Below are positions 8,717-36,031 of a stretch of DNA of 36,031 nucleotides, piece by piece. The position numbers were made by a program, and so were the translations under genes. The notes beneath the pieces are model-generated. The model was not told the origin of the DNA. It did no database searches and was given only the letters and a program-made list of their open reading frames with translations. Source of the stretch: Ochromonadaceae sp. CCMP2298 (taxonomy: Eukaryota; Sar; Synurophyceae; Ochromonadales; Ochromonadaceae); the NCBI GenBank assembly GCA_026770595.1, contig MU633619.1, forward strand, positions 1 to 36,031, in the 5' to 3' direction. How positions within the stretch are numbered: the stretch's first letter is position 1; the number at the start of each line of letters is the position of its first letter.

Positions 8717-11504
8717 TTAATGGGTACTAAACTCGGTATAGACGCTTCCTCCCGCGCCAGATATAGAACTGAGATTTCCGGATCGGCGACGCACGTCAGT
8801 TGCTTCGGCGCCGTCTGGCTCGTCTTCGTACTCAACCTCCCCCCTCTCCTTGCGCTTGAGTTCTCTGTTCTCCACAGTATCGTATGTTTGGCAGTTGAAA
8901 GCGATGACCTTATTGAGCAAGTCTATTTCTTGCGCGACTGATCGTAGCAAGATGGATTCCCGGTCTGCCACCGCCGTGAGGTCCTGCACCACCTTGAAGG
9001 TGTAGCCTTGGTCCACCAGGTACTGCTGGCGCTTTGTAGAAAAGTACATCTCCTTGGTGTCTGTGCTGATCAGCGTGTAGAAAAACGCGTTGAACCCGCC
9101 TGTGGGGTTGGGCTTTGGCCGCAAGATCCGTCCCAGCCGCTGGGCCTCCTGTCTGCGAGCGCCGAAGTGGCTGCTGACTTGAATAATCACGTTCGCCTCG
9201 GGAATATCGAGTGCAGTGTCGCCAACCTTACTCAGACCAATGCAGCTCACCTCCGACCGCGTCTTGAAGGCAGTGAGGATGTCCCTCCGGTCTGCGTCCT
9301 TGGTGCCGCCGTAGATGTACGGTATGGTGCGCACAGACTTCAGGGCCTCGCAGTATAGCACCAGTGCGGGGACGTCGTCGCTGAAAATTATTATTTTGTC
9401 CCCTCGCTTGATGTGGTGCGTGACGAGGTACTCGCAGGCGCGAAACTTCGTGGGATTGAGAGTGTACAGCAAACGCTGCACGCGTGAGTTGCTGCCCAGG
9501 GAGCGTCTGATGTATTCTGCGTAGAACTCCTTGGTCATAGGACACCAGATCTCCACGCACTGCACCTTGGCCAGGTACCCGTCGTTGGTGAGGTCGATCC
9601 AATTCGCCTCGTAGAGCTTGGGCCCCACCAGGAAGCTGAGGTCCTTGATCTTGTTGTCCTCGCGCACCAGTGTGGCGGTGAGTCCCAGCTTGCAGTGCGC
9701 GTTGACCATGTGCACCACCTTCTGGAACATGTCTGCGGGAGCCACGTGCACCTCGTCCAGAATCATCAGACCCCACTCTCGAGAGCTCACTGACTGGATC
9801 ATCATCTCCCCGCTCTGGGAGCGCCGACCCCCGTGGCAGATCATGCTGTATGTGGTGATGACGATGCAGGCCTCAGTGGGTGGCGGCAGCACCTCCTTCA
9901 TGCCGCTGGTGAACATCTTCACGCTCCGCTCCTGAGGCAGCAGAGGAGGGGGTTTAAAATAGACGAATTGAGGCACGGCAACGGGTCGAGCGAGCGGGGA
10001 GGGAGATGACGTACCTGCACGCTGGTCCACATCAGGAACTGCTCCTTCCACTGCTTCACGCTGGCGTTGTTGATGCACAGCACGATGCAGGACCTCTTCA
10101 CGGTGGTGGCTGCGGTCACTCCCGTCAGCGACTTACCCGCTCCGCAGGGCAGGACGATGATGCCAGAGCGGGCGCGGCCGTTGCCGAACATCTGGGACAG
10201 CGACTTCTCCTGGTAGGGCTGTGGCGTCAGAGGGAAGAGGGCAGAATGGGAAGGGCGTTACCTCGTTACGAATGCATGAGAAAGGGCGTTGCATAAAGGA
10301 GGTGTGTACCCTGATTCGCGTGGAGGGCCGCAGATCCATATTCAGCAGGGGGTTGCGGTGGTCGTTTTTGAAATCGTACTCCTCCATCAGTGGGTAGCGC
10401 GACTCCTCCTTCGCGCTCCGCTTCACTTGCTGTTGGAGTGTTGGGGGAGAGCGGTGCAGTGCGTTAGTGCGGAGAGTGGTAAGAGGAAAGAGCAAAGAGG
10501 AGCACGGAGGATGCCTGGCTCACCTGCACCGCGTTCTGCGCGATCATGAAGGATACGGTCTTGGGTCTGTTGCGGAACCCGCTGGTCATACGCAGCTGCT
10601 CCTCTCCCAGGTCTGCCTCGTCCAAGTCGTCGCCCTCCTCCTCCTCCTCTTCCATCTCCTCCATGCCCATCTTCGAGTAGCCCAGAGCGAGAGCGCTCGA
10701 ATCAACCACCGCGGCGGATACAAGGAAGCCGTCCTCCTGCTGAGTGAGGTCCACCACGCCCGACGCCCCAGCCGTCCCCGCAGGTAGCTGCCCGGACGCG
10801 CCACCGCCACCCTGCGCAGCTGACGCAGAGGAGGAGGTGGCCGCGGGATCCGACTCGAGCTGCACTCGCGCGTTGCGAATCACCGGGTTCTTTAGCAGCG
10901 CCTTCAGTATTTCCTGGTCCTTGGACTCTATGTAGAAGTTGTTGTCCTTGAGCACGATCTTGGCCTTGCCGAAGGTGTACGTGCACTCCCTGATGTACTC
11001 CGTCACCTGCACCGGCAGCTCGGTCTTGCAAAGGCGAGTGAGGAACTTGATTATGGACTCGGTGTCGTAGACTGCCACGGCTGCGTAGAGGCTGTTCTCT
11101 GAGAGGCGGTAGCAGTGGATGAACTCTGGGCGGGACTCGGGCTCTGCGATGGCCACCACGAAGTCGTAGGCCTGCTTGTACAGGGCCGAGAAGGCTTCCA
11201 GAACGATCAAATTGTCTGGAGTGACCCACAAAGGTCTCTTATCATGGTCCCTCTTCAAAGTCAGGGACCTGGAGTAGTCCCGGAAGACGTTGTCCTCGTC
11301 GTCGTCGAGCGCATTTCGAGACGACGACGTCACCCTTCCAACCTGAGCATTTTTCTGGCCTCCTCGCTTCAGCTGTTTCGGCTGCGGCAGCTTTGGCTTT
11401 TTAGCCAAGTTGTTGTCATATACATCAAAGTGCTCGTCCTCGTCGCCATCATCGATCCACTCATCCTCCTCGTCCTCCTCGCGTGACTTGCGCTTCGGGG
11501 GCAT
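8717..11504 (-). CDS. XPB: TFIIH DNA translocase/helicase XPB (Ssl2, ERCC3)
   Basis: Four exons: 11504-10524, 10429-10310, 10218-10015 and 9931-8717, all in phase 0, giving 839 residues. It is the SF2 translocase of TFIIH that opens promoter DNA and starts unwinding in nucleotide excision repair. Seen: acidic/basic N-terminus ([16 protein letters not shown]), XPB N-terminal and damage-recognition region (about 95-225), Walker A PCGAGKS (391-397, Lys 396), DEVH box (494-497), the XPB-specific RED motif (525-527), motif [10 protein letters not shown] (699-706) and the conserved tail [18 protein letters not shown]. An insert between the N-terminal domain and helicase lobe 1 is Ala/Gly-rich, then very acidic. 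It contains VVDLT (250-254), the same kind of motif seen in the TFB1 product. The gene is divergent from MON1. Identity is certain from motifs along the whole length. Confidence 0.97.
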
Positions 11505-18200: not shown

Positions 18201-18312
18201 CGAGAAAGGGTTATTCATGAAATCCCAAAAAGGGATTTCATGCCTGAAGAGCGACTGTAGAAAGAGTTATACATGAAATCCCAAAAAGGGATTTCATGCC
18301 TGAAGAGCGACC
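18201..18312. repeat. Two direct repeats each carrying a 27-bp palindrome
   Basis: Two units about 56 bp apart share GAAAG(G/A)GTTAT, then the palindrome (18216-18242 and 18272-18298), then GCCTGAAGAGCGAC. The palindrome has 11-nt arms, CATGAAATCCC and its complement, around AAAAA. A looser relative (GAGGAAATC ... GATTTCCTC) follows at about 18350-18376. Confidence 0.88.
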
Positions 18313-33895: not shown

Positions 33896-36031
33896 TTAAA
33901 ACTGCGCATGCGGGATGTGCGGCAGGGAGGAGGAGAGCAGCGTGTTCCTGGGAGTGGGAGCGAGCACCATCACAGGCTGCTCCTGGGGGGTGGAGCCTCT
34001 CCGCACCTTACTAGTCTGCCCCATACCCTGCCCCAGCCCCTGTCCCATACTCTGCCCCCCCTGTCCCTGGTGCCCCCTTTGTGTCGAGGCCGATGGCAGG
34101 GATTGCTCGTCCTCACCCAAATAAAACATGCTCTCTCCCTCACCCACCCCCCCACTGTACCCCGGCACCTTGACCATCTCCCTAAAGTGTGAGGCCAGCT
34201 TCGCCTTCAAGAACAGGGGCTCCTGACTTCTCCTCCCCCCTCCCCCTACCCCCCCGCTCCTACTCGCCCCCGCTGTGCTGGCGCGTTGTCCGTAGGGGTC
34301 GCGTATAGGGTGCATGGGCTGCCCCTGGGTGAACAGGGGGCGCAGGCCGGTGTGCGCTTGTCTCTTGTCAGTGTGCTGCTGCTGGTGGTAGGGTAGGTTG
34401 CTGGGGTGCGGTTGCTGGTACTGCTGCGGGATCTGCTGGGGGTGGTACTGCTGCTGCTGCATCTGCATCTGTATCTGCATCTGTATCTGCTGGTGGTGCT
34501 GCTCCTGCTCTGCCATGACTCGGGCTGTCACCTGCGCCTGATGCGACTGGTGGGTATTCAGCGTGTCAGCGTCACCCCCACCACCGCCGCCGCTGTTGTC
34601 CCCATCCACACCCATTTCACCCCTCGCCACATCCGTCAGATCAGCCAGCACATCTGTCATCCCACCCACATCCACCTCCACACCCCCCCCCACATTCCTA
34701 TACTCCCCATGTCCATAATCCCCCTCTGTAAGGGTTGGGGAGGGAATGTCGTCGTCCATATGTAGGGACTGGGGACTGGCATCGTTGCGTTGGGGAATGG
34801 TGACTGAGAAGAAGGTTGGCAGGGAAGGGGGGGTGCTGGGAAGGGTGGGAGGATGGAGACTGGCGTTGAGGGAGGGGTGAGAGGATTGGGATCGGTGGGA
34901 AGGAGGGGAGTGGTGCGAGGGGGGGTCGGAGTGCTGCTGAGTATGCTGCTGTAGTGCTTGCTGTTTGTCATAGTGGGATTGCTCCACAGACCTCCGGGCG
35001 CCCGCGTGGCTGAATGCGTTAGAAGGGTCTGAGGGTATGGGTTTAATACACATGTATGGTATAGAGGGAGGGGGTTAAATACACATTTGTGGAATACAGG
35101 GAGGGGGTTTTATACCTGAGGGCAGCTGGCCGCAGCTGAGACAGCGAGTAGAGGACGTCACGCTGACGCTCAGCAGCTCCTCCTCTCTGTTCAGAATGTC
35201 TCTCTCCATCATAGCCAGCTTGGCAGCGATCAGCTTGCGGATGTCCTCTCGGTCCACCTTGGAGTGCATCTGCCTAGGGTTTAGTAGGCAATAGAGGGAG
35301 TGGGTTAAATACACATTTATAGTGTAGATTAAGGGGTTTGGTACCTGTAGACTTGGTCCACCAGGCTGCGCAGGCCGATCACGTTCTCCCCCAAGTGCTT
35401 CTTGAAGGTCAGCGTGATGTGCTCGATCATCCCGCCCACGTCGGCAGTGGAGGGGCGGTCGTCCACACGCAACCCGACGGCTTTTAGTTCGTCCAGCACG
35501 GTGTCTATGGGGATGGCGGTTATGCGTCTCGCTAGCTTGCGCAGCTGCTCCTGGTCCCGTCCCCTAGGTATAGAGGGAGGAGGTTAATACATAGATTTAT
35601 AGTATTGGAAGGTTTAATACATATTTATAGTACAGTGGAGGGGGTTTAATACCTAGCTTCCACCATTTCTGCCTCGTGCGCCCACAGCAAAGTGTTCGCG
35701 TCCGAGAGTAACTGGGTGCAGAAGGGGGGTTAATTAGGTGGTAGAGTGGGAGGAGGTGAATATATGTATACCGTATCGAGGGCGAGGTGAGTGTGGTATA
35801 GGAGGGGTTTTGGGGGTTAATACCTTAAGCTTAGAGGTGAGGGTGGACATTTCGTCAAGGGAGTCGGTGGTCACTGCGGCCACCTTGGACTGCAGCATCT
35901 GCACCTGTAGGGCCATGGCTGCCACCGCGTCGTCCACGTATTTACGACCCTTGCTCCCCCCCTTCCCCGCCTTGCCCACCGCGTCGTCCACGTATTTACG
36001 ACCCTTGCTCCCCCCCTTCCCCGCCTTGCCC
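33896..36031 (-). CDS. DUF4795/QRICH2-like coiled-coil protein, 5' end outside the window
   Basis: Exons visible: 36031-35824 (partial), 35711-35653, 35563-35345, 35273-35116 and 35028-33896, giving 591 residues of C-terminus. From the edge: a tandem 18-residue unit (GKAGKGGSKGRKYVDDAV, at least twice), a helical region (AAMALQVQMLQSKVAAVTTD), then MIEHITLTFKKHLGENVIGL, VDREDIRKLIAAKLAMMERD and RCLSCGQLPSG. A coiled coil closed by a C-x-S-C-G type turn is the pattern I associate with DUF4795, the domain of QRICH2 and C16orf96. QRICH2 is a sperm-flagellum protein, so a flagellar role is possible but inferred. The last exon is disordered, rich in Gln, His, Ser, Pro and Gly, ending SLPHIPHAQF. 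All four complete introns share one repeat family. The N-terminus is not in the window. Confidence 0.6.
35029..35823 (-). repeat. Introns built from one repeat family (introner-like)
   Basis: The introns 35823-35712 (112 bp), 35652-35564 (89), 35344-35274 (71) and 35115-35029 (87) resemble one another. On the sense strand they start GTATTAACCCCC, GTATTAAACCCCCTCC, GTACCAAACCCC and GTATAAAACCCCCTCC. Inside they carry TATAAAT-TGTATT-AACC blocks and CTCCCTCTAT before an ATACCTAG-like or CCTAG/CTCAG end. Some contain the block twice. The exons between them are unrelated, so the likeness is in the introns themselves. Confidence 0.85.
35922..36031 (-). repeat. 54-bp in-frame tandem repeat at the window edge
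   Basis: Copies at 35922-35975 and 35976-36029 are identical as far as seen, and the last two bases continue a third copy. Each codes the 18-residue unit with GKAGKGGSKGRK and YVDDAV. The array runs off the window, so copy number is unknown. Confidence 0.92.

Follow-up and report, generated by a model that had tools for sequence, protein, structure and literature searches.

Four introns of a single gene, at one end of a contig from the Arctic sea-ice chrysophyte Ochromonadaceae sp. CCMP2298, resemble one another closely enough to ask whether they are copies of one repeat, and whether that repeat created them. The window, i.e., the whole stretch of DNA analysed, comprises 36,031 nucleotides of contig MU633619.1. 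The draft assembly of this strain spans 61.1 Mb in 12,764 scaffolds, and the accessible main text of the genome paper (PMC9756366) makes no use of the word "intron". An earlier note, made from the letters of the window, had interpreted the four introns as possible introner elements. We show here that they are members of a genome-wide family of spliceosomal introns, termed family A, built on a tandem 32-nt unit; the introner interpretation is partly supported.

The host gene lies on the minus strand. The first exon present (35824-36031) extends past the contig end and is followed by exons at 35653-35711 (59 nt), 35345-35563 and 35116-35273 and by the last exon at 33896-35028, with the stop codon at its low end. 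Once spliced, these five exons form one open frame, and there are stops in the unspliced frames. The four introns, all within 35029-35823, were confirmed by the joined reading frame and by the alignment of relatives' proteins over the junctions. P0001, a protein of Spumella elongata, spans introns I1 and I2, a metagenome protein (P0002) is gapless across all four positions, and two frames on 6.1- and 8.5-kb contigs (P0004 and P0005) bridge I1 and I2, the two sites that they cover; the junctions of the exon between I2 and I1 are thus bridged by relatives' proteins. The 59-nt exon between I4 and I3 was missed by the gene finder, which fused the two introns. A Pfam search yielded no name for the host protein. 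At the contig end, positions 35922-36031 of the first exon hold a perfect, in-frame tandem duplication of 54 nt (18 residues), which is either a coding repeat or an assembly artefact. The tandem repeat table also lists a 56-nt unit at 18203-18311 of the window (1.9 copies, 96%) with an apparent inner inverted repeat.

All four introns are of the GT..AG type on the minus strand, and each contains one to three recognisable copies of the unit, which match the unit profile in the sense orientation. I1 (35115-35029, 87 nt; GTATAAAACCCCCTCC...CCCTCAG) starts at unit phase 1 and holds two to three units, which are spaced 33 nt apart. I2 (35344-35274, 71 nt; GTACCAAACCCC...ACTAAACCCTAG) has one good and one weak unit, I3 (35652-35564, 89 nt; GTATTAAACCCCCTCC...CTATACCTAG) carries the repeat from the donor to near the acceptor, and I4 (35823-35712, 112 nt; GTATTAACCCCC...CACCCAG) is the most decayed. 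That the four are copies of the same repeat is therefore borne out by the tandem unit of approximately 32 nt common to them all. Their likeness is uneven, however: divergence is clearly greater in I2 and I4 than in I1 and I3, and CTCCCTCTAT, described as preceding every acceptor, is absent from that position in I4. The statement that no other intron of the window looks like these was nearly right, given that one of the 28 other predicted introns matches, at its 3' end and with 6 bits (9932-10014).

The unit of family A is tandemly arranged (GTATTAAACCCCCTCCTTCTATACTATAATGT; consensus GTATTAAACCCCCTCCTTCTATACTATAATG(T)). The genome set searched for it (G000; 11.25 Mb in 724 contigs) is seemingly a part of the 61.1-Mb assembly, probably its longer contigs. 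An initial similarity search of these 11.25 Mb returned 57 family A matches, the window included, on many contigs. A core 15-mer of the unit matched exactly at 73 places, compared with none in a reversed control; with up to two mismatches there were 837 matches, compared with 11. The suggestion of a gene-specific burst thus fails, family A being genome-wide, though patchy. Extrapolation from the ratio found in six 10-kb stretches that were chosen as rich puts the number of A introns in the searched set (11.25 Mb) very roughly at 315.

The placement of the units was determined with a splice-aware gene finder, the intron model of which uses base composition only and is blind to the repeat. The sample of 171.7 kb comprised 26 loci picked by repeat match, the window, and ten arbitrary 6-kb stretches. 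A profile of the unit, derived from the sampled sequences themselves, gave 252 matches of at least 5 bits, compared with none in the reversed sequence, which indicates that the likeness within family A is not due to chance. At a threshold of 7 bits there were 211 units, i.e., 166 sense intronic, six antisense intronic, one exonic and 38 unplaced. Twenty of the unplaced units belong to L004, a locus with exons visible by eye between the arrays, which we took to be mis-predicted; the others are in L022, L030, L008 and L027. Six further 10-kb stretches, examined at 6 bits or more, contained 123 units (95 sense intronic, two antisense, none exonic and 26 unplaced), and 25 of these 26 unplaced units lie in L050, between recognisable exon pieces. 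A minisatellite spread through exons and intergenic DNA had been named earlier as the observation that would speak against introners. The repeat is indeed a minisatellite, but only one of the 173 units in predicted genes is exonic, with six antisense intronic. Given that 38 of the 211 units fall outside predicted genes, some copies may be intergenic.

In the ten arbitrary stretches, none of the 22 predicted introns contained a family A unit, which points to a patchy distribution. Moreover, A introns cluster: there were 20 adjacent pairs over 142 introns, compared with 13.3 expected from shuffling within stretches. Seven of 5000 shuffles attained this figure; for the six rich stretches alone, 98 of 5000 attained the observed clustering. 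The window exemplifies such runs: all four introns of its end gene carry units, while the 28 others provide one weak match. A bin of mixed organisms was rejected as the cause of patchiness, since loci with the repeat and arbitrary stretches have similar exon GC and GC3 (exons were predicted in all but one of the arbitrary stretches) and genes both with and without repeat introns occur together on the window contig. One stretch, L041, is almost wholly coding and intron-free, and may be of bacterial origin. Exact family A patterns, like those of the second family described below, were without match in viral contigs. Among 113 units, mean identity was 0.694 between different introns of one locus, 0.712 between different loci, 0.749 within one intron and 0.809 within unplaced arrays, values that fit dispersal first and local expansion afterwards. 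In other genes, introns are packed with short tandem repeats of different kinds (L023, L042 and L045; ACTACACAT-like and AATACACA-like), and intron satellites may be general in this genome. Contigs C209 and C223 have introns in common, arranged in mirror image (L059/L060 and L063/L064), and are probably alleles or duplicate contigs.

Two further genes were used to validate the splice models. The model of DapL (LL-diaminopimelate aminotransferase, L033) aligns to 3qgu with no gaps at its five A junctions and includes the whole deposited CCMP2298 protein without a difference. Likewise, the model of PDS (phytoene desaturase, L006) is identical to the deposited CCMP2298 protein once one exon, identified by eye, is included. 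The gene finder has a known weakness, in that a swallowed exon was missing from one PDS query and one dynein query. Judged by homology and by agreement with the deposited models of these two genes, the A introns are predicted to be spliced.

We then considered whether relatives have introns at the same sites. The DapL model has eight introns in the L033 stretch, five of them with units of at least 7 bits. All 26 relatives tested, out of approximately 39 on contigs of at least 3 kb among 120 listed, align gaplessly over seven or more of the eight junctions; 20 bridge all eight, and the seventh junction fails in six. For PDS, all 31 relatives on contigs of at least 3 kb bridge seven of the eight sites tested, namely four clear or weak A sites, two others and the one belonging to the second family, and 15 bridge the eighth. 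Since deposited eukaryotic models would look bridged after splicing too, the informative relatives are those represented by jgi or Logan frames (15 of 26 for DapL and 13 of 31 for PDS). We took these frames to be unspliced because two, P0008 and P0004, begin with an apparent translated intron. On this footing, introns are absent from the orthologous sites of relatives in DapL, PDS and the window gene. In a tree of 35 DapL proteins, rooted for drawing only, CCMP2298 pairs with P0007 (contig 1405), beside P0008 and others from contigs of several kb. Gain in the CCMP2298 lineage is the more economical reading of these comparisons. DapL introns without a clear unit are also bridged by the relatives' frames, so that the gain reading covers these too.

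How the repeat meets the splice sites was analysed in 62 A introns. The gap between splice site and recognisable array is at most 12 nt at the donor in 14 introns, at the acceptor in 26 and at both in eight; the copies of family A are thus not precisely bounded by splice sites. The earlier observation that the repeat encloses both splice sites holds reasonably well for the I1, I3 and I4 donors, but it is not general across the 62. Nor is it generally true that the element supplies the splice sites itself. Read in sense, the unit lacks AG altogether; read in antisense, it has four. Acceptors, which could be projected onto the unit in 36 of 61 introns, lie in unit phases 13-24 (12 of the 32 phases) in 28 of them and so favour a fixed part of the unit, whereas donors, projectable in 24 introns, exhibit no clear phase clustering. 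In other introns of the species, CCCCC and CTCCC are abundant before the acceptor. The unit supplies such a C-rich stretch and lacks AG, so that a sense array would be ready for splicing and an antisense array would not. Judging from this anatomy, sense readiness may be the cause of the orientation bias.

Direct repeats at the flanks of 104 arrays were scored and compared with expectations from cross-paired flanks. Scores of at least 8 were reached in 34 arrays (11.28 expected), of at least 10 in 16 (1.67 expected) and of at least 12 in 10 (0.00 expected). On reading, five of the ten best matches are exon sequence: L027 (29/29 nt), L031 (24/28 nt), L004:2118-2254 (32/33 nt, the array lying between copies of the acceptor and exon start), L049 (17/19 nt, with AG|GT in both copies) and L050 (14/15 nt). 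The other five comprise three array-internal matches in L050, a decayed unit in L034 and a family-B-like match in L018 (family B being the second family, described below). Among the six matches scoring 10 or 11, that in L006 (PDS; 13/14 nt, ACAACGGACTGCAG) is exon sequence, three are unit-like or of low complexity, and two are 10-nt matches. A further exon-sequence repeat flanks the L051 intron at 1750-1861 (13/13 nt; CTCCGTCTCGCAG). In L006, L051 and I1, the end of the exon is recopied at the 3' end of the intron, where it supplies the acceptor AG. In I1 this copy is the last 7 nt, CCCTCAG; matches of at least 7 nt like this one (7/7) occurred in 7 of 3782 cross pairs. The inserts of L051 and I1 begin at unit phase 1, so the donor is GTAT, and in L049 the duplicated piece with AG|GT could be the source of both splice sites.

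At the donor end lie six antisense arrays, the orientation of two being based on our own reading of the gene. The duplication includes the exon end and the donor in three (L027:1340-1432, L031:1500-1548 and L050:6345-6455), it is only 8 nt in L004:1090-1182, and no flanking duplication was found for those of L052 and L048. A target duplication of fixed length was not found in family A; where a duplication is present, it varies from 7 to 33 nt.

In a test for repeats in register, three of 85 A introns had at least 8 of 12 matches (0.33 expected, p 0.005), while the mean did not differ significantly (p 0.055). Introns of neither family gave 5 of 170 (0.84 expected) and family B 0 of 39. Any 8-nt direct repeat across the intron was found in 8 of 68 A introns (2.4 expected), 12 of 169 introns of neither family (5.3 expected) and 2 of 37 B introns (1.3 expected); an earlier duplication test of 60 A introns had given little excess (8 compared with 5.9). 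Variable edge repeats are therefore above chance in family A but affect few introns, and the same holds for introns of neither family, so that duplication may be a mark of intron gain generally in this genome and not of family A. The majority of A introns would be too old to show a duplication, or of other origin. In two introns of neither family, L071:2095-2217 and L051:2719-2887, the last bases copy the upstream exon end (11/12 and 10/12); these are perhaps recent gains.

We propose that stretches of the repeat were inserted into genes, duplicated variable lengths of target and became introns, an account to which we give slightly better than even chances as a whole. The repeat would enter genes as DNA. 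Insertion with variable-length duplication is the best reading for the minority of loci in which the duplication is seen, and we infer it for the rest. It would probably proceed via the repair of staggered breaks or via template switching. A sense insert would be spliceable at once, using the GTAT donors and the AG-free, C-rich pyrimidine tract that the unit possesses, and the first AG would then be in the duplicated exon piece or just past the array. An antisense insert lacks a pyrimidine tract and has four AGs in each unit; such arrays are found mainly beside a donor. Later, arrays would expand, contract and decay within each intron. The minisatellite might thus be a portable intron kit, i.e., an AG-free, C-rich 32-nt repeat caught at an exon break and spliced immediately via an AG copied from the exon, with no transposase; this we advance tentatively, with odds a little short of even.

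A serious rival, if the less likely reading, is that the repeat created no introns but spread between existing ones by recombination or conversion and expanded there, selection against antisense copies giving the bias. Such invasion would suit the 48 of 62 A introns that open with unrelated or other low-complexity sequence, the donor lying more than 12 nt before the start of the array, as well as the lack of a target duplication in most A introns. It would also agree with the C-rich 3' ends of other introns of the species, and with the DapL introns that lack a clear unit and are bridged by relatives' frames just like those that carry one. However, relatives' frames continue without a break where DapL, PDS and the window gene have A introns, eight of the 62 introns are repeat almost end to end, and some possess a copied exon end, all of which speak against invasion.

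The same genome contains a second family, B, which is an introner in the strict, classic sense. It was recognised from introns of L006 and L010 that are similar end to end (L006:107-246 and L010:2834-3024) and was also found in L055, L061 and others. Its members are approximately 140-160 nt long (GTAGGTGTCCGAATTACATAAA...TTTATCTAATTCGGACGCCTCTCAG), and their inverted ends agree at 18 of 20 nt. A genome search gave at least 41 matches, from the best 40 of 153 candidates scored, and a core 20-mer with up to three mismatches gave 201 matches compared with one in the control. Of 44 matches in the loci, 40 are in predicted introns, all in the sense orientation, and four are unplaced; both ends lie within 12 nt of the splice sites in 30 of the 40. 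Among 19 copies there was no target duplication beyond the splice-site letters. Family B matches the known introner kind; no published account of it was found among the matches listed.

With such a family present, and with family A dispersed, intronic and sense-oriented, family A might be thought a non-autonomous DNA transposon with fixed target duplications and splice sites of its own. We consider this very unlikely and mostly refuted, as family A has no fixed-length duplication, its copy number and phase are variable, and no inverted ends were seen by eye in units or arrays. Derivation of A from B is unsupported, their similarity score having been reached in 230 of 2000 shuffles. An RNA route, with introns copied through reverse splicing and reverse transcription, would account for the excess of sense copies (166 compared with six in predicted introns), yet it is still more improbable, since arrays rather than exact whole introns are what is shared and the antisense arrays with long flanking duplications resemble DNA insertions. 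That shared splicing signals make unrelated introns similar is scarcely credible: C-rich tracts near acceptors are general in the genome, but the tandem 32-nt unit, its mean identity of 0.71 between loci and the 837 matches against 11 in the control refute convergence.

Intron inserts in Daphnia are of mixed source, unlike those of family A, in which one repeat family is reused. Fungal introner-like elements are, to our knowledge, not tandem arrays. As far as the accessible part of a review goes, these fungal elements multiply without canonical transposon marks and are co-linear with transcription (PMC3443670), and family A resembles them in both respects. The same part of that review reports that 43% of gained Daphnia introns are flanked by short direct repeats (PMC3443670), as are a minority of family A arrays. 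In the tandem genomic duplication of AGGT that it describes, as in L049, the first AG|GT copy can give the donor and the second the acceptor (PMC3443670); L049 differs in having repeat DNA between the copies.

The introners of Micromonas, Aureococcus, Amoebophrya and others, in the accessible parts of the sources, are many similar introns of one orientation in unrelated genes, at sites uninterrupted in relatives (PMC9860276; PMC7789003). Family A is alike in this, being found in introns of many unrelated genes and almost always in one orientation, and we regard it as introner-like, as the earlier note had proposed. It differs in being a variable-length tandem minisatellite, without fixed ends or a fixed duplication and with no inverted ends seen by eye. 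The accessible part of one introner survey states that candidate families were examined for short repetitive motifs, in order to exclude microsatellite expansion (PMC9860276); families of the A type could have been set aside there. Among the matches listed (titles and abstracts), there was no published account of family A introns in CCMP2298 or chrysophytes.

How a lineage comes by thousands of introns is an old open question, and recent surveys credit most bursts to transposons. If our account is true, a repeat fit for splicing, with insertion marks like those of break repair, would add a transposase-free route of intron gain. Given that family A and the classic family B are present in one culturable strain with a described sister strain, Ochromonas CCMP1393, the two routes could be set against each other within a single genome.
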